IMG/VR virus record: IMGVR_UViG_3300048759_000066
Location: 1-40,279 of that record
DNA: 40,279 nt
Reading direction: 5' to 3' (one strand)
Source of the DNA: a virus
Position numbers and translations under genes: made by a program. The number at the start of each line of letters is the position of its first letter. The stretch's first letter is position 1. Below the pieces are notes generated by a model. The model saw nothing but the letters and a program-made list of their open reading frames with translations, had not been told where the DNA came from and did no database searches. Shown piece after piece: positions 7,635 to 29,052 of the stretch.

Positions 7635-7785
7635 CCGTAACGTCCTTGATTTGTATTTTTTTGTCCCATAACGGATTGATATTATATTTCTTCATCGCCC
7701 CGACTAAATGAGACATGCTTTTTGCCGTTATTTTGATCTCTTTTACCTTATTATTCTCTACCGTCTTAATGCTAAACGTCTTCAT
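7627..7785 (-). CDS. Small hypothetical protein (52 aa)
   Basis: ATG at 7785 lies 14 bases inside the recombinase gene end, and the stop overlaps the next start. The product (MKTFSIKTVENNKVKEIKIT, then SMSHLVGAMKKYNINPLW) is basic with a likely beta hairpin followed by a helix. No family is recognised; it could be a recombinase accessory or regulator. Confidence 0.6.
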   Translation of the reverse strand: MKTFSIKTVENNKVKEIKITAKSMSHLVGAMKKYNINPLWDKKIQIKDVTDE

Positions 7786-8680
7786 ATCGCCCTCTTGGAT
7801 GGAAGTGTTGAAACTTTTCTTGCATTTTAATACTACTCAATTGAGTATATCGCTGCGTGCTCGTTATGGAACTATGGCCCAGTATCTCCTGGATAAGCCT
7901 TAAGTCCGCGCCTTCATCAAGCAAATGTGTCGCGCAGGCATGTCTTAGGGTATGGGGCGTCACTCCCTCTAAGCGTGCCTTTTTTGCATGTCTTCCAACT
8001 ATCAAAGCGAGAAGTCTCCTCCCGATCCCTTTTTTGTGAGCTTGCGTGATGAACAAATATCCTTCCTCATGTCCTCTATAGTTTGCAAGATAGGTCGTTA
8101 TCCAGTGTTGCGCCTCTAAGTTTATTGGGATGGTTCTGGTCTTTTCTCCTTTTCCGCATACGATTGTAATGTGCTGGCCTTGATAGTTTTTGATCTCCAA
8201 ATCACATAGTTCTGAAGCTCTTAAGCCTGAAGAATACAAGAGTTCCATCATAGCTCTGTCTCTTACTCCAGCTTCATGGGTGATATCTATTCCTTTCATC
8301 ATCTGGCTCACTTCTTCCTTTGTTGGTACGTATGGCGCTTTAACCTTATGCCTTGGTATCTGAATATCTTCCGCTAAATCGACGTCAATGGCCTTAATTC
8401 GCTTCAGGTAACGAGAAAACGATCGTATGGACATATAGTATCGCCTAATGGTTGATTCGCTCTTCCCGGCCTTCTTTGTGTGTCCAAGGTAACTGGTGAT
8501 AATATCCGGTTTGAGTTGCTTAATGCGCTTCATACCTTTCTGTTCTGCGTACGATAAGAACGTTTCTATGTCCCTCGTGTAAGCATCAATTGTGTTCTGT
8601 CCCTTCGTCAGTAGCAGGCTCTCGCAGTAACTTTGCAGAGCTTGACTTAAGGCAGTCGAAGCCGTCCGTTGTGTTTTCAT
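7772..8680 (-). CDS. XerC/D-like tyrosine recombinase (integrase)
   Basis: The 302-residue protein has an N-terminal SAM-like core-binding domain (residues 10-100) and a catalytic domain with Arg154 (SSGLRASEL), Lys180 (GKGEKTR), His243-x-x-Arg246 (HTLRHACATHLL), His269 (LGHSS) and nucleophile Tyr278 (TQRYTQL). All catalytic residues are present. Length and motifs match XerC/XerD rather than long lambda-type integrases. It may resolve multimers of a circular prophage or integrate at a dif-like site. No attachment site can be proven, but the repeat-rich segment near 9705-9817 is a candidate. Confidence 0.9.
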   Translation of the reverse strand: MKTQRTASTALSQALQSYCESLLLTKGQNTIDAYTRDIETFLSYAEQKGMKRIKQLKPDIITSYLGHTKKAGKSESTIRRYYMSIRSFSRYLKRIKAIDVDLAEDIQIPRHKVKAPYVPTKEEVSQMMKGIDITHEAGVRDRAMMELLYSSGLRASELCDLEIKNYQGQHITIVCGKGEKTRTIPINLEAQHWITTYLANYRGHEEGYLFITQAHKKGIGRRLLALIVGRHAKKARLEGVTPHTLRHACATHLLDEGADLRLIQEILGHSSITSTQRYTQLSSIKMQEKFQHFHPRGRYEDV

Positions 8681-12612: not shown

Positions 12613-12893
12613 TGATGGGATTTTTTGGAAGAAGTAGCTTTATACCGGAGTTTAGTGAAACACCCAGTCTGCAGCAAAAGATGGAAAGATGGATTCGCGT
12701 CGAAAATGGACTTCCTGATAGTGACAGGTTAGTTCAGACTGTGATAAAAAAGAAAAGTTTTGATAAAATTGAGAAATCTTTTTTAGAACTTCAGAATTTT
12801 TGTCCCCGTAATGGATGGTTAGGTTCTTCCGGGGTAATTGCATGGAAAGAGTGTGATTCTGAGTTATTAAGTATGATTAAGGAAAAACAATGA
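12609..12893 (+). CDS. Hypothetical protein (94 aa), possible DUF551 relative
   Basis: The stretch MERWIRVENGLPDSDRLVQTV resembles the W-I-x-V-x-x-x-L-P opening of DUF551 phage proteins, but the usual C-terminal W-M-P-L-P is not seen; instead the protein has GWLGSSGVIAWKE. It overlaps RtcB by ATGA. Function unknown. Confidence 0.5.
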   Translation: MMMGFFGRSSFIPEFSETPSLQQKMERWIRVENGLPDSDRLVQTVIKKKSFDKIEKSFLELQNFCPRNGWLGSSGVIAWKECDSELLSMIKEKQ

Positions 12894-14068
12894 ATCGAGA
12901 ACAGATAACAATATTTGGGGAGGCCGAAGATGACGTGGTGGGGCAGATGCTTGCTGTATGTGGAAAAAGTCCTGTGGCGCACGCCGTTCTGTGTGCTGAC
13001 AGTCACCTTGGATATTCTGTTCCTGTTGGGGGCGTGGTGGCTTATGAAGGTCGGATTTGTGTCAATGGAGTCGGCTTTGATATCGCTTGCGGGAATAAAG
13101 CTGCTCGCCTTGATGTCGATGCCCTCGGAGTGAAGAAGGACATTTACCGGACAATGAATGAAGTTCAGAAGCATATTAGTTTTGGAATCGGAAGGAAGAA
13201 TAATGAACCAGTTGAGCATATTTTGTTTGATGATGATTTGTGGACAACTATTCCTTTGCTTGCTTCTCTTAAGGATAAGGCTCGCGCTCAACTTGGAACT
13301 GTGGGCTCTGGAAATCATTATGTTGATATATTTACCGATGAGCATAATCGTGTGTGGGTCGGGGTACATTTTGGTTCGAGAGGTCTTGGGCATTCGATAG
13401 CGACACATTTTATAAAAGCAGGAGGAGGAAAGGATGGAGTGCATGCTGACCCGGTTGTATTTGATGAAAGTAGTGACCTCGGAGAACAGTATCTTAAATG
13501 CATGGAATTGGCTGGCCGATACGCTTATGCTGGTAGAGACTGGGTGTGTCAGAGAGTATCAAGAATCTTGCGGGGAGAAATCTTGGAAGAGGTCCATAAT
13601 CACCACAACTTTGCGTGGAAAGAATCACATTTTGGTAAAGATTTGTGGGTCATCCGAAAAGGATCAACACCTGCTTTCCCAGGCCAGAGAGGCTTTGTTG
13701 GCGGATCTATGGGAGACATATCAGTCATTATCGAAGGAACCGATTCAGAAGCATCAAGGGATAGTCTCTTTTCTACAATCCATGGAGCTGGCCGTGCAAT
13801 GGGAAGAACTCAAGCCAAGGGCAAAGTCAATCGTAGAACGGGTGCAGAAATACGACCCGGATTGGTCACTAAGCTTGCCCATGAAGATTGGATGGACAAA
13901 GCTGGAGTAGAAGTGCGTGGAGGCGATTTAGATGAATCACCTTTGGCTTATAAACGCATTGAACAGGTATTGCAGGCTCATGAAGGAACTATCAAGGTAT
14001 TACATACGTTAACACCCATTGGGGTCTGTATGGCCGATTCAAGGGAAAGAGATCCATATAAAGATTAA
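12890..14068 (+). CDS. rtcB: RtcB-type RNA ligase (3'-phosphate/5'-OH joining)
   Basis: The 392-residue protein is full length for RtcB. Visible active-site elements are DIACGNK (metal Cys67), GTVGSGNHYVD (His143), VGVHFGSRGLGH (His160), VHNHHNFA (236-241), RKGSTPAFPGQRG and IHGAGR with His298, the residue that carries GMP. RtcB heals and seals RNA breaks with 2',3'-cyclic phosphate (or 3'-phosphate) and 5'-OH ends using GTP and Mn. Anticodon nucleases and other RNases of phage defence leave such ends, so a repair role for cleaved tRNA is likely. It sits in an operon with a second RNA ligase and upstream of phage tRNAs. Confidence 0.95.
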   Translation: MNREQITIFGEAEDDVVGQMLAVCGKSPVAHAVLCADSHLGYSVPVGGVVAYEGRICVNGVGFDIACGNKAARLDVDALGVKKDIYRTMNEVQKHISFGIGRKNNEPVEHILFDDDLWTTIPLLASLKDKARAQLGTVGSGNHYVDIFTDEHNRVWVGVHFGSRGLGHSIATHFIKAGGGKDGVHADPVVFDESSDLGEQYLKCMELAGRYAYAGRDWVCQRVSRILRGEILEEVHNHHNFAWKESHFGKDLWVIRKGSTPAFPGQRGFVGGSMGDISVIIEGTDSEASRDSLFSTIHGAGRAMGRTQAKGKVNRRTGAEIRPGLVTKLAHEDWMDKAGVEVRGGDLDESPLAYKRIEQVLQAHEGTIKVLHTLTPIGVCMADSRERDPYKD

Positions 14069-14439: not shown

Positions 14440-14539
14440 ATCTGAAGAAGGACACTGGGAAGGTAAGTACTGGTGTAACTGTCGGACAAGAATGTATAGA
14501 TTATGGTTAGGAAAGAAGAGGTGGGATGGAAGAGAATAA
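14393..14539 (+). CDS. Small basic Trp/Cys-rich protein (up to 48 aa), overlapping both neighbours
   Basis: In the frame ending at 14539 the product includes SEEGHWEGKYWCNCRTRMYR and LWLGKKRWDGRE, which reads as real protein. Its stop lies 14 bases inside the RNA-ligase gene, the layout seen throughout this operon. The start is uncertain: a TTG at 14393 or access by slippage on the A-runs of the preceding gene. Confidence 0.4.
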   Translation: MKYLSKKKHQRKKPNRSEEGHWEGKYWCNCRTRMYRLWLGKKRWDGRE

Positions 14540-15494
14540 TAAAGGGTTAGTATATGTTGGGAAGATTATTGAATTGGATCGAATTCCAGATGCGGATTTT
14601 ATTGTTTCGGCTACAGTCGTTTGTGGTCAGGGGGGTAAATGGCGAGGGGTTGTTCGTTCCGCTGACTTTAGTATTGGCGACAAGTGCATTGTTTTTTTGC
14701 CTGATTCATTGGTTCAAGAAAGCGATGATATGGCTTTTTTAAAGTCCTCTGGGTGGCGTGTAAAGATGCGGCGGTTTAGGCGAGCTCCAAGTGAAGTGGT
14801 AATTATGCCGAATAAGTTCAACCTACTCGTTGGAAATGATGTTACGTTTCTCTGCGGGGTTACTAAGTACTGTAAACCTGTGCCTGCGTGTCTTAATGGT
14901 TTAGCTAAAGGGTTGTTTCCAGACTTTATACCTAAGACGGATGAACCGAATTACCAAAGACCGGACGCGAATGTTGCTGAGTTGATAGGAAAACCGTTTT
15001 ACGTCAGCCTTAAGATGGATGGAAGTTCGACGACGGCATTCAAACATAACGGTGAGTTCGGTGTGTGCAGTCGGAACCTGGAACTGAAGAAGGATGAAAA
15101 CAACGGCTACTGGAAGGTCGCGCAGAAGTACAAGTTGGAAGAGAAGTTGCCGGATGAGACAGCGCTTCAGTGGGAGACGTGTGGCCCAGGTATTCAATCT
15201 AATCCTATGGGTCTTAGTGACTTAGAGGGATACGCGTTTTCGGCATACAATATCGTTGAGAAGCGTTATTTTACCATGAAAGAGACGATTGATCTGTGCG
15301 AGAAAATCGATTTTCCTATGGCTGAGATTCTGAGGGAAGGAGACTGTTTTAGTAATTATGGGATTGAAGTTTTAGGTGAAGGAACATACGATAACCACAA
15401 GCAAAGAGAGGGTGTTGTAGTCCGGAGTCAAGAGAACTTGTTAGGACATAAACCCATAAGTTTCAAAGTGATAAACCTAAACTACGAGAAATAA
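14526..15494 (+). CDS. DraRnl/Rnl5-like RNA ligase (N-terminal OB module plus nucleotidyltransferase)
   Basis: The first ~110 residues form an OB-type module (GLVYVGKIIELDRIPDADFI, then GDKCIVFLPDSLVQE). The ligase domain has motif I K163-M-D-G, a motif III-like WETCGPG around Glu217, motif IV EGVVVRS at 295-301 and motif V SFKVIN with Lys314. This order, OB domain first, is that of the Rnl5 family typified by Deinococcus DraRnl, which seals 3'-OH/5'-phosphate nicks in RNA, using ATP. That is the opposite end chemistry to RtcB in the same operon. All catalytic motifs look intact at 322 residues. Confidence 0.85.
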   Translation: MEENNKGLVYVGKIIELDRIPDADFIVSATVVCGQGGKWRGVVRSADFSIGDKCIVFLPDSLVQESDDMAFLKSSGWRVKMRRFRRAPSEVVIMPNKFNLLVGNDVTFLCGVTKYCKPVPACLNGLAKGLFPDFIPKTDEPNYQRPDANVAELIGKPFYVSLKMDGSSTTAFKHNGEFGVCSRNLELKKDENNGYWKVAQKYKLEEKLPDETALQWETCGPGIQSNPMGLSDLEGYAFSAYNIVEKRYFTMKETIDLCEKIDFPMAEILREGDCFSNYGIEVLGEGTYDNHKQREGVVVRSQENLLGHKPISFKVINLNYEK

Positions 15495-16837: not shown

Positions 16838-16857
16838 TAATAACTATAAATAAAAAT

Positions 16858-16930
16858 GCGGGTGTAGCTGAGTGGCTTAGCGGTCCCCTAATCCGGGACG
16901 ACGTACGATGGTTCGAGTCCATCTGCCCGC
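16858..16930 (+). tRNA. tRNA with CTAATCC anticodon loop (AAT by position; identity uncertain)
   Basis: A full cloverleaf folds: acceptor GCGGGTG/TGCCCGC with two G-T pairs at its base, D stem GCTG/TAGC, anticodon stem GTCCC/GGGAC, T stem GATGG/CCATC with loop TTCGAGT. The 7-base anticodon loop is CTAATCC, which by position gives anticodon AAT (Ile, codon ATT). That is unusual: bacteria use GAT, and base 37 is a C where a purine is expected. The variable region is seven bases. Confidence 0.7.
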
Positions 16931-16936
16931 ATTATC

Positions 16937-17010
16937 GCTGGATTAGCTTAGTGGTTAGAGCAGACTCCTAATCCGAGTCGTGAGGCACAGGTTCGATTCC
17001 TGTATCTGGC
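16937..17010 (+). tRNA. tRNA with the same CTAATCC loop (AAT by position; identity uncertain)
   Basis: Acceptor GCTGGAT/ATCTGGC, D stem GCTT/GAGC, perfect anticodon stem GACTC/GAGTC, T stem ACAGG/CCTGT with loop TTCGATT. The anticodon loop is again CTAATCC although the rest of the body differs from its neighbour, so the loop is shared by conservation and not by recent whole-gene duplication. A CCT (Arg) reading would need a shifted loop that breaks the stem. Confidence 0.7.
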
Positions 17011-17174
17011 GTTCATATAAAGTCCACACCTATAATGGATGGCTGAGATTGGAAGGCGCAGTTGACCTGATCACTCAAATGTTACACAGGCTTTACATAC
17101 CTGTTAAGTTATAGCTCCAGAAATGGAAGGTTGTTGAACTCGTGAGGCCCAACCGTGAAAAAGCCTCTAGACAT
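17011..17174 (+). other. Structured non-coding stretch between tRNAs
   Basis: No gene is recognised here. It can form CTATAA/TTATAG and ACAGG/CCTGT pairings around a loop CTGATCA that resembles an Ile (GAT) anticodon loop, and further right GGTTG/CAACC and GAGGC/GCCTC hairpins. It does not fold into a proper tRNA (no T-loop TTC). It may be one or two decayed tRNAs or another small RNA. Confidence 0.4.
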
Positions 17175-17246
17175 GGACTTTTAGCTCAGTTGGTAGAGCG
17201 TGTGCCCGTTAAGCACTAAGTCGGAGGTTCAAATCCTTCAAAGTCC
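17175..17246 (+). tRNA. tRNA-Asn (GTT)
   Basis: Acceptor GGACTTT/AAAGTCC is perfect, D stem GCTC/GAGC, T stem GGAGG/CCTTC with loop TTCAAAT. The anticodon loop CCGTTAA gives GTT (Asn). Base 33 is C where U is nearly universal, and the outer pair of the anticodon stem is T-T, so the tRNA may work poorly or be modified. Confidence 0.8.
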
Positions 17247-17251
17247 TATAA

Positions 17252-17323
17252 GTCGGGTTAGTTCAATTGGTAGAGCTCCTGTTTTGTACTCAGGGAGTTG
17301 TGGGTTCGAATCCTACATCCGGC
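17252..17323 (+). tRNA. tRNA-Thr (TGT)
   Basis: Acceptor GTCGGGT/ATCCGGC, D stem GTTC/GAGC, T stem GTGGG/CCTAC with loop TTCGAAT. The anticodon loop TTTGTAC gives TGT (Thr). The innermost anticodon-stem pair is T-T. It is followed by A73 and by a GC-rich structured segment. Confidence 0.8.
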
Positions 17324-17410
17324 AAACTTAATATTCCTCGTTGTTTAAGTCCGGTCAAGCTTCTGGTAAGTTCGGGGGCACGTACGATTGACTGGGGGAG
17401 ATAATAAACG

Positions 17411-17485: not shown

Positions 17486-18814
17486 ATGTCTCTAATTCTT
17501 CCTTACGGCTATTCGCCTCGTCCTTATCAAGTAAATATTTTAAAAGCTTTAGACAATGGGTGTAGAAACGCCTGCTGGGTAGTCCATCGGCGTGGTGGAA
17601 AAGATACTACGATGTGGAACTATATGATCAAGCGCGCCTACATGGAACCTGGGACGTACTACTACTTCCTACCCACTTTTGCGCAGGCGAAGCGGGTTAT
17701 CTGGGACGGCATGACGAACGATGGAAAACGAATGATTGACTACATCCCGAAAGAGATTATCGACGGAAATATCAACAACACGGAAATGAAAATCTGGATC
17801 AACGGAGCGCATGGACAAAGTTTGATTCAGTTGGTGGCAGGCGACGCATATGACGGTATCATGGGAACGAATCCTCGCGGCATTGTGTTCAGCGAGTGGA
17901 GTTTGATGGACCCGATGGCCTATGAGTTCGTGAAGCCTATACTAGCTGCGAATGGAGGGTGGTGTGCGTTCATTTACACTCCGAGGGGGAAGAACTGCGG
18001 CTGGGATTTAGCTGAGATCGCCAGGAGGAATCCGCAGGACTGGTTTTACGAGTTGCTTACGGTGGAGGAAACGGGGGTTCTTACTAAAGAGCAGGTAGAA
18101 ACGGAGCGTCGTAAGGGTATGCCCGAGGATATGATCCAGCAGGAATTTTACTGTAACTTCAATCGAGGGCAGGAAGGAGCCTACTACGGACGTCAAATGG
18201 AAGAACTTAGGAAGAAGGGCCAGATATCTCACGTACCTTTTGACCCGGCAGTCCCCATACGAACATACTGGGACCTAGGAATAGGTGACAGTACGGCCAT
18301 ATGGTTTGCTCAATTTGCGGGGAAAGAAATCCATTTAATTAATTATTACGAAAATTCCGGTGAAGGGTTATCTCACTATGCACGCGTTCTGGATGATTAC
18401 CGTCGAGAAACTGGAGGTGTATACGATCTGCATATCGCTCCACACGACATACAAGTTCGGGAGTTGACGTCAGGAAAGACTCGGCTAGAGACAGCTCGGA
18501 AATTAGGGTTGAACTTCCGGGTAGCCCCCAAACTTGGATTAGAAGCAGGGATAGAAAGCGTACGAATGATTCTTTCACGATGCTGGTTTGATGAACGTCG
18601 AAGTGATTTAGGTATAAAATGTCTTGAGAACTATCGGAAGACTTACAATGAGAAGTACAAGGTTTATGGGGATCGACCTTTTCACGACTACACGTCTCAT
18701 GGTGCCGATGCGTTTCGAATGCTTGCAATAACCGAATCAGACTATCGACCCGATCAGGGTGTAGGAGATACTCAATATGAGTTGATGAAGCAGAACTGGG
18801 GGTGGAAAGTTTAG
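17486..18814 (+). CDS. terL: Terminase large subunit
   Basis: The ATPase has a variant Walker A VVHRRGGKDTT (residues 32-42) and Walker B IVFSEW (133-138). The RNase H-like nuclease has Asp263 (YWDLGIGDST), Asp321 (APHDIQVRE) and Asp401/Asp408 (HDYTSHGADAF). The protein is 442 residues, a usual size for P22/Sf6-like headful terminases. It pumps DNA into the prohead through the portal and cuts it. The start follows an AT-rich leader with no strong Shine-Dalgarno. The small subunit is far upstream at 10683. Confidence 0.95.
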   Translation: MSLILPYGYSPRPYQVNILKALDNGCRNACWVVHRRGGKDTTMWNYMIKRAYMEPGTYYYFLPTFAQAKRVIWDGMTNDGKRMIDYIPKEIIDGNINNTEMKIWINGAHGQSLIQLVAGDAYDGIMGTNPRGIVFSEWSLMDPMAYEFVKPILAANGGWCAFIYTPRGKNCGWDLAEIARRNPQDWFYELLTVEETGVLTKEQVETERRKGMPEDMIQQEFYCNFNRGQEGAYYGRQMEELRKKGQISHVPFDPAVPIRTYWDLGIGDSTAIWFAQFAGKEIHLINYYENSGEGLSHYARVLDDYRRETGGVYDLHIAPHDIQVRELTSGKTRLETARKLGLNFRVAPKLGLEAGIESVRMILSRCWFDERRSDLGIKCLENYRKTYNEKYKVYGDRPFHDYTSHGADAFRMLAITESDYRPDQGVGDTQYELMKQNWGWKV

Positions 18815-21729: not shown

Positions 21730-23691
21730 ATGCCAGCAGACTACGACATTGTCTCGGACTTCACGCAAGATTACAACCGCGCCTACATGCTGTTAAATAC
21801 TTTTTACGCAGAGGCATATCGTGACACCGGCTTCTACCTTGGGAACCAGTGGTCGTTGGAACAGATGCGGTACCTTAATAGTGAGAGACGCAATTCGTTT
21901 ACTTTCAACAAAATACGAAAAATAATCAACCTGGTTAGTGGGTATCAAAAGGCACATGCGAATTCGAGTATAATTGTGCCGTTTGAGGATTCGAGTGCCG
22001 AAACTGCGGAGCAACTGACTGAGCTTCTGCGACATGTGATGCAACCTAATGGATATCGGATCATAAGCGAAGCATTCCTCAGAAGTTTGATTACAGGTGT
22101 CGCGTGGGTTTCGCCTTGGGTAGATTACAGAAAAGATTATGTCAATGGTCGCATATCCTTCCACCTTGATAATTGGAACGATGTTATCTGGGATCCCTTC
22201 AGCGTACGTGCGGATTTAGAGGACTGTACCTTTGTTGCTAGAAGGAAATATCTTGCTAAGGATGTAATCAAGAGCATGGTTCCTGGTTGCGAGAAAGAAA
22301 TAGACAGCATGGGATATGGTAACAGGGACGAAAAGTTCACATATGAGCCTTACAGTAGGCAGTGGGGACTCCAGGAGCTTCTAGCCTATAATGAGTACTG
22401 GAAACAACGGTACAAGAAGGGCTGGATCATGGTTGACAAGGCTACTGGAGAGCAGAAACCTTGGAAGGGAGACAGAGCCCGACTACAGATGATGCAGAGA
22501 TTTTTCCCCAACATTGCCGTGATCGAAGGGTACTATAAGACCGTAGAATACAATGTCATCGTGGAAAACCGGCTTCTCTACAGCGGAATGGATCCCTGGG
22601 GCATCGGAGAATACCCTTTTGTGCCCTTCTACACAGTCTTCGACGGCTCATACGACCTGTTCCAGTGGAAGATACAGGGCCTCGTAAGACTGCTCAGGGA
22701 CCCGCAGGAGGAGGCAAATATGAGGCGCTCCAAGCTGCTTGATATAGTCGATTCTCAAATTGGAAGTGGCTGGAAGGTTAAGTCTGGAGCCGTTTCTAAT
22801 CCGAAGTCGTTGTTTCAGACAGGTCAGGGCCGAGTTATATTTTTCAATCCAGGTTATGAAACCACAGATGCCGAGAGGTTAGATGCTCCTACGATTCCTG
22901 AAAGTCTATTTGCGTTGTCGGACACATTCGATAAGGATATGGCTGACATGGTGGATCTCAACAATCTCAACGTGGAAGACACAGACCGGATGAGTGCAGT
23001 GCTGTTCCAGATGAAGCAGTCACTAGGAATGATGGGTTTAGGGCCGATATTCGATAATCTACGCGAGTCCCAATACCTTTTAAGTAAGAAAGTTCTCAAG
23101 ATGATCCAGAACTATACGCCGGAAAAGGTGCAAAGGATCATCAAAACACAGCCCACACCAGAGTTCTATAATAAGACGTTTCTTGAATACGATGTCGATA
23201 TTGTTGAGAGTGTCATGACTGATACGCAGAAACAACAAGCGTTCTTACAAGCCTGGTCGATGAAGATGGGTGGTGCAGCGGTTCCGGACGAAATGCTTTG
23301 GGAACTTTCGCCCTTTCCGATTCAGAAGAAGTTCATGGAGCAAATCCAGCAACAGAACGAACAAGCGAAAGCCGACGCAGAAGCCGAACGACAAGACAAA
23401 GAAAGAGTTAACAAACTTCTTGAGGCTAAGACATTTACGGATATATCTCTGGGTGAAGAACGGCTAAGCAGAATTAAATACGATGCGGCTTTGAGTGAAG
23501 AACGTCTGGCTGCGGCACAGGAAGAAAGGGCAAGAAGTGTATTGGATATCATTAGGGCAGGGAAAGAGTTCCAAGAGATGGACATCGGGAATGCGCACAA
23601 GATCCTGGAAATCATCCGTGGCGTGGAAGAGGAACAGAGATGGGCTGCTGAAGACACTATCGTCCCACAACCGGCAGTGAAGGAAGGCTAG
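21730..23691 (+). CDS. Portal protein (P22-like)
   Basis: The 653-residue protein has the P22-type portal layout: an N-terminal DFTQDYNRAYMLLNTFY helix, FYLGNQWSLEQMRYLNSERR, a conserved core (RRNSFTFNKIRKIINLVSGY), the WDPFSVRADLEDC strand region and a long C-terminal Glu/Arg/Gln-rich coiled coil (residues 540-640) like the P22 barrel. It forms the dodecameric ring through which DNA enters and leaves. Type and length fit a podovirus. It starts the late structural operon, after an intrinsic terminator. Confidence 0.9.
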   Translation: MPADYDIVSDFTQDYNRAYMLLNTFYAEAYRDTGFYLGNQWSLEQMRYLNSERRNSFTFNKIRKIINLVSGYQKAHANSSIIVPFEDSSAETAEQLTELLRHVMQPNGYRIISEAFLRSLITGVAWVSPWVDYRKDYVNGRISFHLDNWNDVIWDPFSVRADLEDCTFVARRKYLAKDVIKSMVPGCEKEIDSMGYGNRDEKFTYEPYSRQWGLQELLAYNEYWKQRYKKGWIMVDKATGEQKPWKGDRARLQMMQRFFPNIAVIEGYYKTVEYNVIVENRLLYSGMDPWGIGEYPFVPFYTVFDGSYDLFQWKIQGLVRLLRDPQEEANMRRSKLLDIVDSQIGSGWKVKSGAVSNPKSLFQTGQGRVIFFNPGYETTDAERLDAPTIPESLFALSDTFDKDMADMVDLNNLNVEDTDRMSAVLFQMKQSLGMMGLGPIFDNLRESQYLLSKKVLKMIQNYTPEKVQRIIKTQPTPEFYNKTFLEYDVDIVESVMTDTQKQQAFLQAWSMKMGGAAVPDEMLWELSPFPIQKKFMEQIQQQNEQAKADAEAERQDKERVNKLLEAKTFTDISLGEERLSRIKYDAALSEERLAAAQEERARSVLDIIRAGKEFQEMDIGNAHKILEIIRGVEEEQRWAAEDTIVPQPAVKEG

Positions 23692-26719: not shown

Positions 26720-27679
26720 ATGCCCATCACAACAACAGCACAAGTCCCTCCAGAAGTGCGGACTTACTTTGACAGGCTTTTGCTCACACTTGCCCGTCCA
26801 TACTACATCTACGACATGTTTGCCCAGAAGAGGACCATTCCTTTGAACTCTGGTGATCAAATGGTCTTCAGACGCTATTCAACTCTTGCAGCCGCTACCG
26901 TACCTATTCAGGATGGAACAACACCTCCAGGAGATAGTCTGAGTGTTACTGACTTTTCTACCCAAATTAAGTGGTACGGAAACTTTGTCACTATTACCGA
27001 TCAGATACAGTTCACAGTCCAGGATCGAGTCTTAAATGAATCCACAAGGGTACTTTCATTACAATTAGGGCTCACAATCGACACCCTAATTCGAAATATG
27101 ATGGTCGCTACAGCTTCCTCAATATCTTGTCAGTACGGTATTGACGGCCTAACCCCTACAGAGATAACTACAGCGGACATTAAGAACGCAGTACGTGCTC
27201 TGAGACTAGGCAACGCACGATTGATGACCAAACCGATCCAGGGAGAAAACCGTTTTGCGACCTCACCCGTCAGATCAAGTTTTTGGGGATTCATAGATGT
27301 CACTTTACAGCCAGACCTAGAGGCATGTGCTGACTTCTTGAGTGCTGCTAACTACCCTAACCCTATGGATGCTCTTGAGGCCGAATGGGGGTCCACAAAT
27401 AATATCAGATGGTTAATGTCAACGAATGGTTACAACAATGGTGCTTCTACACCTGTTTGGAACTCTATTATAGTCGGACAAGAAGCCTACGGAGTTGTGA
27501 AACTGGGATCGAAGGAAGCCGAATTTATTGTTAAGCCTTTAGGTTCTAGCGGCACAAGCGATCCTTTAAACCAAAGAGGCTCAGTGGGTAAAGAGTTAGC
27601 TCACTTTAAATTTTCTCTGATTGACATGGAAGTCCAAGCGGATGACATGGCGCAAGCTGAATATCTTTTAGCAGCGTAA
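26720..27679 (+). CDS. Major capsid protein, N4-gp56 type (exon 1 plus read-through into an intron)
   Basis: The N-terminus (MPITTTAQVPPEVRTYFDRL, then LLTLARPYYIYDMF) and middle (IPLNSGDQMVFRRYSTLAAA, LNESTRVLSLQLGLTIDTLI) are those of the N4-gp56 family of HK97-fold capsid proteins. The conserved SDPLNQRGSVG ends at 27589. The last 29 residues of the unspliced frame (KELAHFKFS... to AEYLLAA) do not fit the family and are encoded by a group I intron. Splicing 27589 to 27813 restores a C-terminus YKYPFATRLLNDNWITRL and so on, giving 314 residues. Without splicing the protein would be 319 residues with an aberrant end. Confidence 0.85.
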   Translation: MPITTTAQVPPEVRTYFDRLLLTLARPYYIYDMFAQKRTIPLNSGDQMVFRRYSTLAAATVPIQDGTTPPGDSLSVTDFSTQIKWYGNFVTITDQIQFTVQDRVLNESTRVLSLQLGLTIDTLIRNMMVATASSISCQYGIDGLTPTEITTADIKNAVRALRLGNARLMTKPIQGENRFATSPVRSSFWGFIDVTLQPDLEACADFLSAANYPNPMDALEAEWGSTNNIRWLMSTNGYNNGASTPVWNSIIVGQEAYGVVKLGSKEAEFIVKPLGSSGTSDPLNQRGSVGKELAHFKFSLIDMEVQADDMAQAEYLLAA

Positions 27680-27812
27680 ACGACTAAGTGAGAAAACCCG
27701 GAAACGGGAAGCGATAGTCTGAACTCTACGTATATATGAAGGTAGAGAGGTTGATCCGAAGAGGTTGGCCCGCCAGAAATGGTCAGTAAGCGAAAGCCGA
27801 AGTAACAGAATG
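27590..27812 (+). ncRNA. Compact group I intron (about 223 nt, no ORF) inside the major capsid gene
   Basis: Pairings: P1, exon AGTGGGT (27583-27589) with internal guide GCTCACT, ending in the required U-G at the 5' splice site; P3, TTTTCTC (27611-27617) with GAGAAAA (27690-27696); P7, GACTA (27682-27686) with TAGTC (27715-27719); P8, CCCG-GAAA-CGGG (27697-27708); P9, CTCTAC (27724-27729) with GTAGAG (27742-27747). The order P3 5', P7 5', P3 3', P8, P7 3' is diagnostic of group I. The intron ends in G at 27812. P4-P6 (27618-27681) are not resolved by eye. It is among the smaller group I introns, near the size of the Azoarcus tRNA-Ile intron. Confidence 0.8.
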
Positions 27813-27887
27813 TACAAGTATCCTTTTGCGACCAGACTCTTGAATGACAACTGGATCACACGCCTCTTGTCTACACAGAATCTATAA
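27813..27887 (+). CDS. Major capsid protein, exon 2
   Basis: This 75-base segment continues the capsid frame after splicing and encodes YKYPFATRLLNDNWITRL plus LSTQNL and a stop. It matches the C-terminal strand expected in N4-gp56 capsids (aromatic-Lys ... Phe-Ala ... Leu-Asn-Asp-x-Trp-Ile-x-Arg). It has no ribosome-binding site of its own, so it makes sense only as a 3' exon. Confidence 0.8.
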   Translation, partial: YKYPFATRLLNDNWITRLLSTQNL

Positions 27888-27905: not shown

Positions 27906-28631
27906 ATGCAATATAGACACGGTATTATTCACAGCACAGGAGCCGCCGTCAGTTTGATGCTCGGCTTCGTGCCTGACAAGTTCGAGGTATACAACTACAC
28001 AGTCCTGGGAAATGGTTCTGGTGGTACAGGTGTAGGTTATTCCCTCTGGCTTAAAGGAGCGGTTCCTAGTGGAAATGCTCTGATCAATACTTACACAACA
28101 GGAGCACCAGTCACCACACTCATCACGTCAAACGGATTTACACCGGTGGTATTGGGAGCAGACTGGCAGAACACGATCTACACCATCACGGGTATTTCGA
28201 ACGCGAATCCAGGCATTGTGACCGTCGACCCAGTCAACCCGACCAACTCTATGGTTCTGGTTAACGGAATGACAGTGACTATCTCTGGTGTAAAAGGAAT
28301 GACTGGTCTTAACACCAACCGTTTCATTGTTACCTCCATCAGCGGGGCAACAGGCAGTCAGACATTCGCTCTATACGACACTTTTGGTAACCCAGTAAAC
28401 ACAACAGCTTTAGGTACTTACGTATCGGGTGGTGAATTGGATGTGATCTCGTATCCTCCAACAGCTCCAATTCTCGATCCCGTTACCGGCCAAGTTATTA
28501 CACCGGGAATGCCAGCAGGTCTTCAGTACGACATTGGTTTTGCAGGAATCACTCTAGGTACAGGCGTTGTGGGAGCAAACACAAACGTTCTGTGGTGGAA
28601 TGCGTTCTTGGAAACACCGACAGGCTACTAA
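27906..28631 (+). CDS. Capsid decoration/structural protein with FCCH-like domain (241 aa)
   Basis: AGGAG precedes the start. Residues ~90-185 form an FCCH-type module (as in E1 enzymes and many phage structural proteins): ITGISNANPGIVTV, NGMTVTISGVKGMTGLNTNR followed by FIVTSI, then TFALYDTFGNPV and YVSGGELDVIS. The rest is Gly/Thr/Val-rich and beta. Placed right after the capsid gene, it is likely a decoration or head-completion protein. A terminator-like hairpin follows it. Confidence 0.65.
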   Translation: MQYRHGIIHSTGAAVSLMLGFVPDKFEVYNYTVLGNGSGGTGVGYSLWLKGAVPSGNALINTYTTGAPVTTLITSNGFTPVVLGADWQNTIYTITGISNANPGIVTVDPVNPTNSMVLVNGMTVTISGVKGMTGLNTNRFIVTSISGATGSQTFALYDTFGNPVNTTALGTYVSGGELDVISYPPTAPILDPVTGQVITPGMPAGLQYDIGFAGITLGTGVVGANTNVLWWNAFLETPTGY

Positions 28632-28677: not shown

Positions 28678-29052
28678 ATGAATTCATTAATAGGATTTCC
28701 ATTAGGAACTATTTATCAGATCACGAATATCACTCGAGGATTTCCAGGAGTGGTCACTTTGTCCAGCGTGGCACTGCCTTACTCCTTCCCCATAGAACTC
28801 GGTATGACGGTAACGATCTCCGGTGTTAAGGGGATGCTAAAAGTGAACGACAACAGATACATAGTCGCTAATTTTAATTCTGAAGCGATGACATTCCAGC
28901 TTTACGACCTCAAATTCAATCCAGTTAACACAACATCATTTCAGCCCTACATCAGCGGTGGACAAGTGAACATCATTTCGTATGTGTCACCTCCCGCTCA
29001 ACCTCCTGGGCTTATGTACAACAATCAAAAGGTCCCCAATGGCATTCAATAA
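28678..29052 (+). CDS. Stand-alone FCCH-domain protein, paralogue of the decoration protein domain
   Basis: The 124-residue product matches the FCCH-like part of the previous gene closely: IYQITNITRGFPGVVTL, GMTVTISGVKGML, NDNRYIVANF, TFQLYDLKFNPVNTTSF and YISGGQVNIISY. The identical stretch GMTVTISGVKGM suggests a domain duplication. It may be a second decoration or minor head protein. AGGTTAC precedes the start. Confidence 0.65.
   Translation: MNSLIGFPLGTIYQITNITRGFPGVVTLSSVALPYSFPIELGMTVTISGVKGMLKVNDNRYIVANFNSEAMTFQLYDLKFNPVNTTSFQPYISGGQVNIISYVSPPAQPPGLMYNNQKVPNGIQ

Follow-up and report, generated by a model that had tools for sequence, protein, structure and literature searches.

The window (the whole 40,279-nt stretch of viral DNA analysed here) carries P22-like portal (21730-23691) and terminase (17486-18814) genes and, on the minus strand, an integrase gene (7772-8680, phrog_1), which suggests a temperate podovirus-like phage. 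Four tRNA genes are clustered at 16857-17324 (plus strand): two adjacent tRNA-Ile genes, both with an unusual AAU anticodon according to the ARAGORN call, tRNA-Asn and tRNA-Thr. An RtcB-type RNA ligase (12890-14068, plus strand; phrog_1075, E 2e-73) and a second RNA ligase (14526-15494, plus strand; phrog_968, E 9e-39) are encoded near these tRNA genes and could conceivably form a tRNA-repair set with them. Downstream of the capsid gene, two ORFs (27906-28631 and 28678-29052) share a repeated domain (NGMTVTISGVKGM.. and LGMTVTISGVKGM..), and the former shows a weak E1_FCCH-like match just under the Pfam cut-off.

The ORF at 26720-27679 (plus strand, 319 codons) encodes the major capsid protein, as indicated by a Pfam Phage_capsid_4 match and by a match to the phrog_1357 major head protein (E 6e-40, best stretch residues 3-291). 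This ORF consists of an exon that reads on into an intron, and the gene is organised as follows.

26720..27589, plus strand: exon 1 of the major capsid gene, residues 1-290 (Phage_capsid_4; phrog_1357; homologues match residues 1-290)
27590..27812, plus strand: group I intron, 223 nt, ORF-less, phase 0, last base G (absent from 28 homologues; covarying core)
27813..27887, plus strand: exon 2, encoding YKYPFATRLLNDNWITRLLSTQNL and the stop codon (agrees with the C-termini of homologues without the intron)

Among 2.9 million viral contigs scanned, 35 loci homologous to the window capsid gene were found, 28 of which (L003-L029 and their like) contain no insertion. In all 28 homologues with no intron at any site, GSVG runs straight into YKYPFATRLLNDNWITRLL(S/A)T, and the same unbroken junction is seen in loci that contain introns elsewhere in the capsid gene. 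In the window, this continuation starts only at 27813, after the 223-base insert. Removal of the insert restores the conserved protein, as expected of a clean insertion, and gives a 314-residue capsid with the codons GGU UAC at the join. An alternative placement of the junction (27588/27812) yields an identical protein; 27589/27813 was preferred because it satisfies the rule of a U before the 5' splice site and a G at the intron end and allows a 7-bp P1. The terminal base expected of a group I intron, G, is thus present at 27812. A second record (L002) is identical over 6957 bases and probably derives from the same phage.

The insert folds into the following group I helices.

27583..27605, plus strand: P1, exon AGUGGGU (27583-27589) with guide GCUCACU (27599-27605), U.G at the splice site (7-bp pairing)
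27611..27696, plus strand: P3, UUUUCUC (27611-27617) with GAGAAAA (27690-27696) (7/7 pairs change on both sides in relatives, 98% paired)
27650..27677, plus strand: P6, GCGC (27650-27653) with GCGU (27674-27677) (5/6 pairs change on both sides)
27682..27719, plus strand: P7, GACUA (27682-27686) with UAGUC (27715-27719), forming a pseudoknot with P3 (invariant in the set)
27697..27708, plus strand: P8, CCCG-GAAA-CGGG (4/4 pairs change on both sides)
27725..27746, plus strand: P9, UCUAC with GUAGA (5/5 pairs change on both sides)
27749..27770, plus strand: P9.1 (7/7 pairs change on both sides)

Covariation was assessed in an alignment of 53 related introns comprising 42 pairs over P3, P4, P5, P6, P7, P8, P9 and P9.1. 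In this alignment, 97% of the cells are paired, versus 40-46% when the partner strands were slid. All of these helices covary except P7, which provides no covariation test because it forms part of the search pattern and is therefore invariant. A P1 of 6-7 bp with U.G at the junction and an exon-matched guide is present at all seven homology-defined splice sites tested; with shuffled exon ends, 9% of trials give six pairs. One occurrence of the core motif is seen in the window, where 0.01 would be expected. Single-sequence folding, which was only mildly better than that of shuffled sequences (z -1.9), was not relied on. The covariation over 53 relatives is decisive: the P3-P7 pseudoknot core with P4-P6 and P8 is that of a group I intron, and this intron splits the major capsid gene at the boundaries given above. 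Splicing in the cell, and self-splicing with a guanosine cofactor, are inferred.

No match to the Rfam model RF00028 (Intron_gpI) was obtained for the window intron or its relative L060 at E<=10 in permissive mode, and none was found in a search of the window and 18 related loci. The T4 td intron, used as a control, was found by RF00028 at 40 bits, which is below the curated cut-off of 50. Given the unambiguous covariation, and with even T4 td scoring under the cut-off, we regard the missing match as a blind spot; the family lies outside RF00028, which is a limit of the model and not a defining feature of group I. The P7.1/P7.2 helices of group IA are absent from the window intron, in which only AGU (3 nt) separates the P7 5' strand from the P3 3' strand. 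The initial annotation, made from sequence alone, had proposed a compact ORF-less group I intron in the major capsid gene, with P1 (including its U-G pair), P3, P7, P8 (with a GAAA loop) and P9 in the right order, and a join of 27589 to 27813 that gives a natural capsid C-terminus. All of these claims held: the exact junction is seen in intronless homologues, whose C-termini exon 2 matches, although splicing itself is still inferred. The Rfam search it had proposed as a check was negative, and the intron was upheld by covariation instead.

To define the family, we searched for the RNA-core pattern CGACTAAR..GCGATAGTCTGAAC, which is blind to genes and tails; at least 120 contigs matched. Of the 140 introns identified in the core-pattern loci, 94 lie at many positions within two major-capsid families, namely the capsid family of the window (51 introns) and P22-type coat genes (phrog_283; 43 introns). 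Other introns checked are located in genes for further head proteins (phrog_9953 and phrog_1328), terminase, anaerobic ribonucleotide reductase and the tape measure protein. Within the window's capsid family, L030-L035 contain introns at five other positions, with two introns each in L034 and L035. The insertion phases at resolved capsid sites, read from the junctions, are phase 0 (window, L034 and L035), phase 1 (L030) and phase 2 (L033). The window intron is not an isolated case but a member of a large capsid-associated phage family. This capsid-centred family, unseen by Rfam, makes annotators split capsid genes: the coat gene of the public genome MW202674, for example, appears as two separate genes (UOF80249.1 and UOF80250.1) around such an intron. 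Several introns of the family occur within a single capsid gene in L092, L066, L070, L132 and L109. The introns at capsid residue ~88 in L034 (2391-2927) and L035 (2198-2893) contain an ORF for a LAGLIDADG-like homing endonuclease (motif read by eye).

The exon 1 frame stays open into the window intron and terminates within it, resulting in a C-terminal tail with the features below.

27590..27679, plus strand: in-frame read-through tail KELAHFKFSLIDMEVQADDMAQAEYLLAA, stop codon UAA at 27677-27679, just 5' of P7 (ORF 26720-27679; comparative tails)
27659..27676, plus strand: ssrA-like C-terminus EYLLAA, codons UUA GCA GCG in the 3' side of P6 (same-site introns L114 and L134)

The end of this tail, AQAEYLLAA, resembles that of the ssrA tag (NYALAA). 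The initial annotation had taken it as meaningless read-through, and this part was not upheld, as an ssrA-like C-terminus is common to many related introns; the finding that it named as refuting the intron, capsid homologues naturally ending in AEYLLAA, was encountered in none of the homologues found. Introns at the same insertion site in distant phages encode the tails AQAGEYLHAA (L114) and AQAEQFALAA (L134). At other sites in the window's capsid family, the tails are LIDLDLLAA (L030), LIDLDRLAA (L033), QEEIYMLAA and EQQVLAA (L034), and TNEELQLAA and EQEALAA (L035). The introns found via the protein (those of the window, L030, L032 and L033, and two each of L034 and L035), located at 6 sites in more than one phase, all encode tails ending in LAA before the stop. 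The degron-like tails QEEIYMLAA and TNEELQLAA belong to the residue ~88 introns, where they lie in the P1 loop beside the endonuclease ORF.

Similar tails are found in P22-type coat genes, including CGYLQAA and, as alleles of one site, QEAYLLAA, QDAYFLLAA and QAANSAFFALTA. At coat residue ~387, the tails are ECANDQSFALVA, VANDEKFALVA and VANDSSFALVA. Some tails mimic the whole tag (VANDEKFALVA, ECANDQSFALVA and VASNDAVFALAA). ARAGORN identifies the tmRNA tag of E. coli as ANDENYALAA; in a Burkholderiales genome that itself contains an intron of this kind, the tag is ANDERFALAA, of which VANDEKFALVA is a near copy. This resemblance is seen in relatives; the host of the window phage is unknown, and a comparison with its own tag is lacking. 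The same Ala-Ala end arises from three architectures, in which the stop is located in the P1 loop, in P5 or beside P7. From these comparative data (different codons, different places, many relatives), the AEYLLAA tail is the most unusual part of the intron. The terminal Ala-Ala is the key element recognised by ClpX, and YALAA on GFP is enough for degradation (PMC7652416).

To examine the dependence of Ala-Ala on translation, we used a core element that encodes SLIDLE in one frame and contains stops in the other two; that frame was translated in every intron, and an intron was defined as read when the exon frame reaches the core element, with >=60 open codons upstream. Ala-Ala ends are present in 32 of the 46 introns in which the exon frame reaches the core versus 4 of the 64 in which it does not (p 1.2e-12; overstated, as kinship was ignored). 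When only stops in P5 were considered, the numbers were 21/28 read and 0/16 unread (p 6e-7; kinship ignored). When all architectures are pooled, Ala-Ala closes 33 of the 69 unique tails, as against 33 of 1278 other ORF ends from these loci, and some of the latter are themselves missed tails. Related introns are not independent, so these p-values overstate the significance, but the qualitative read/unread contrast is unaffected. The 41 Ala-Ala tails are encoded by 37 distinct 12-mers, among which each of the four Ala codons and each of the three stop codons is represented, indicating that the protein, not the RNA, is conserved; the differing insertion phases likewise indicate that the tail frame is fitted to each site. 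Thus, the Ala-Ala enrichment is specific to the frame that is translated, and it holds over many sites and codons. The read/unread contrast and the codon diversity led us to reject RNA constraint as the only cause; it is retained as a partial cause for tails ending beside P7, where GCAGCG is partly dictated by P6.

The tag rule is not strict. Ala-Ala is missing from about half of the unique tails; among these are tails that stop immediately, tails with ..VH at their end in a P2-like loop, and tails ending in VVAFS/EVVIN. Coat introns at residues ~35-53, which would give very short truncated products, carry no tag, and sites 356 and 387 are tagged; coat sites 109, 206 and 382 are also untagged. 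The second recurrent tail (VVAFS/EVAIS/EVVIN/EVVFN), found in L045, L070, L109, L132, L147, L048 and L092, is also present unread (L062) and looks RNA-driven, its uniformity being unexplained. The idea that the ..VH and VVAFS/EVVIN tails are other degrons is unsupported, the latter type occurring unread. In addition, the P22-type coats of L181, L185 and L201 have a native C-terminus ..CRVAA, itself Ala-Ala; therefore, Ala-Ala alone is no proof of instability.

We consider it likely that the intron RNA encodes, in frame with exon 1, a degron mimicking the ssrA (tmRNA) tag, through which truncated capsid translated from unspliced mRNA is removed; the required feature, a short in-frame tail closing with Ala-Ala, is present in the window. 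Splicing, Clp degradation and the benefit are inferred, with no experiment. In this model, spliced mRNA would yield the 314-residue capsid, and a ribosome entering the intron before splicing, as the coupling of translation to transcription in bacteria leads one to expect, would produce a truncated capsid ending in EYLLAA, with the stop just before P7. Host ClpXP/ClpAP would be expected to destroy the tagged product before it poisons shell assembly. Truncated capsid subunits can co-assemble, so capsids are plausible beneficiaries. The benefit would be a lower cost, letting introns live in highly expressed, assembly-sensitive genes. A bolder reading, which we also judge likely, is that a mobile group I family has evolved protein quality control of its own, with a cis-encoded ssrA mimic present in every copy in the frame demanded by its site, so that the truncated product of every unspliced transcript would self-destruct; splicing and degradation are again inferred. 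If true, introns equipped with the self-destruct tag could spread into genes where a truncated subunit would poison assembly, those for major capsid proteins above all.

The rival that survives best, although we regard it as unlikely, is that this is an ordinary group I intron whose tail is meaningless read-through, with Ala-Ala being an accident or a by-product of RNA structure. Arbitrary stops are indeed normal in group I introns (T4 td stops at once), and GCAGCG before P7 also exists where it is unread. However, Ala-Ala depends on the translated frame (32/46 versus 4/64), and the dependence remains when the P7-adjacent class is left out (21/28 versus 0/16). Furthermore, the residues are constant while codons and stops vary freely, and ssrA-tag mimics with AND motifs are present.

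It is very unlikely that the tail recruits a factor other than ClpXP (e.g. Tsp/Prc or an adaptor) or mainly halts ribosomes to protect the folding of the core. Tsp/Prc also prefers non-polar C-termini, LVA, QAA and VIAA tails suit several tail-specific proteases, and the P1-loop class stops before the core. However, Ala-Ala is kept although stop placement differs widely between classes, and the AND..FALVA mimics have the whole ssrA layout. A functional alternative capsid isoform of 319 residues, with splicing setting the isoform ratio, is also very unlikely and was rejected: the unspliced product of the window is nearly full length (290 shared residues and a 29-residue tail), but similar tails follow truncations at residues ~61, 66, 88, 92 and 104, too early for any capsid to fold, the isoform would lack the conserved C-terminal YKYPFATRLL, and no homologue has such a natural end.

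The rarity of introns in protein genes of bacteria and phages is commonly ascribed to translation-transcription coupling, with ribosomes making junk protein. If the degron reading is true, a degradation tag borne by the intron and favoured by selection would directly solve this coupling cost and give a selfish element a new route to lowering its burden, and the question can be tested with a simple reporter. Group I introns and ssrA tags are already known; an intron that encodes such a tag is possibly new, as no report of intron-encoded ssrA-like tags was found in the open-licence literature searched, which is no proof of novelty.

The family shares with known phage group I introns (T4 td and nrdB, Twort, LL-H and others) the P1-P9 core, the 5' U.G, the terminal G and the protein-gene hosts, and some members (L034 and L035) likewise contain LAGLIDADG-like ORFs. 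It differs from them in its concentration in capsid genes, from group IA in having 3 nt between P7 and P3 and hence no P7.1/P7.2, and from T4 td, which is detected by RF00028 and has no in-frame degron-like tail. Similar to tmRNA/ssrA tagging, a C-terminal (A)ANDxxFALAA-like tag is expected to send truncated proteins to ClpXP; unlike tmRNA, the intron tag is encoded in cis and would reach the protein through ordinary translation up to an ordinary stop codon, without trans-translation. Engineered ssrA fusions (LAA and LVA) also have a genetically encoded Ala-Ala tail, whereas the intron tag is natural and would be conditional on splicing failure. Eukaryotes clear the translation products of retained introns through C-terminal degrons, the signal there being generic hydrophobicity. 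The two systems are alike in that a C-terminal signal removes, or in the phage would remove, the products of unspliced RNA, whereas the intron tag is specific and apparently selected.
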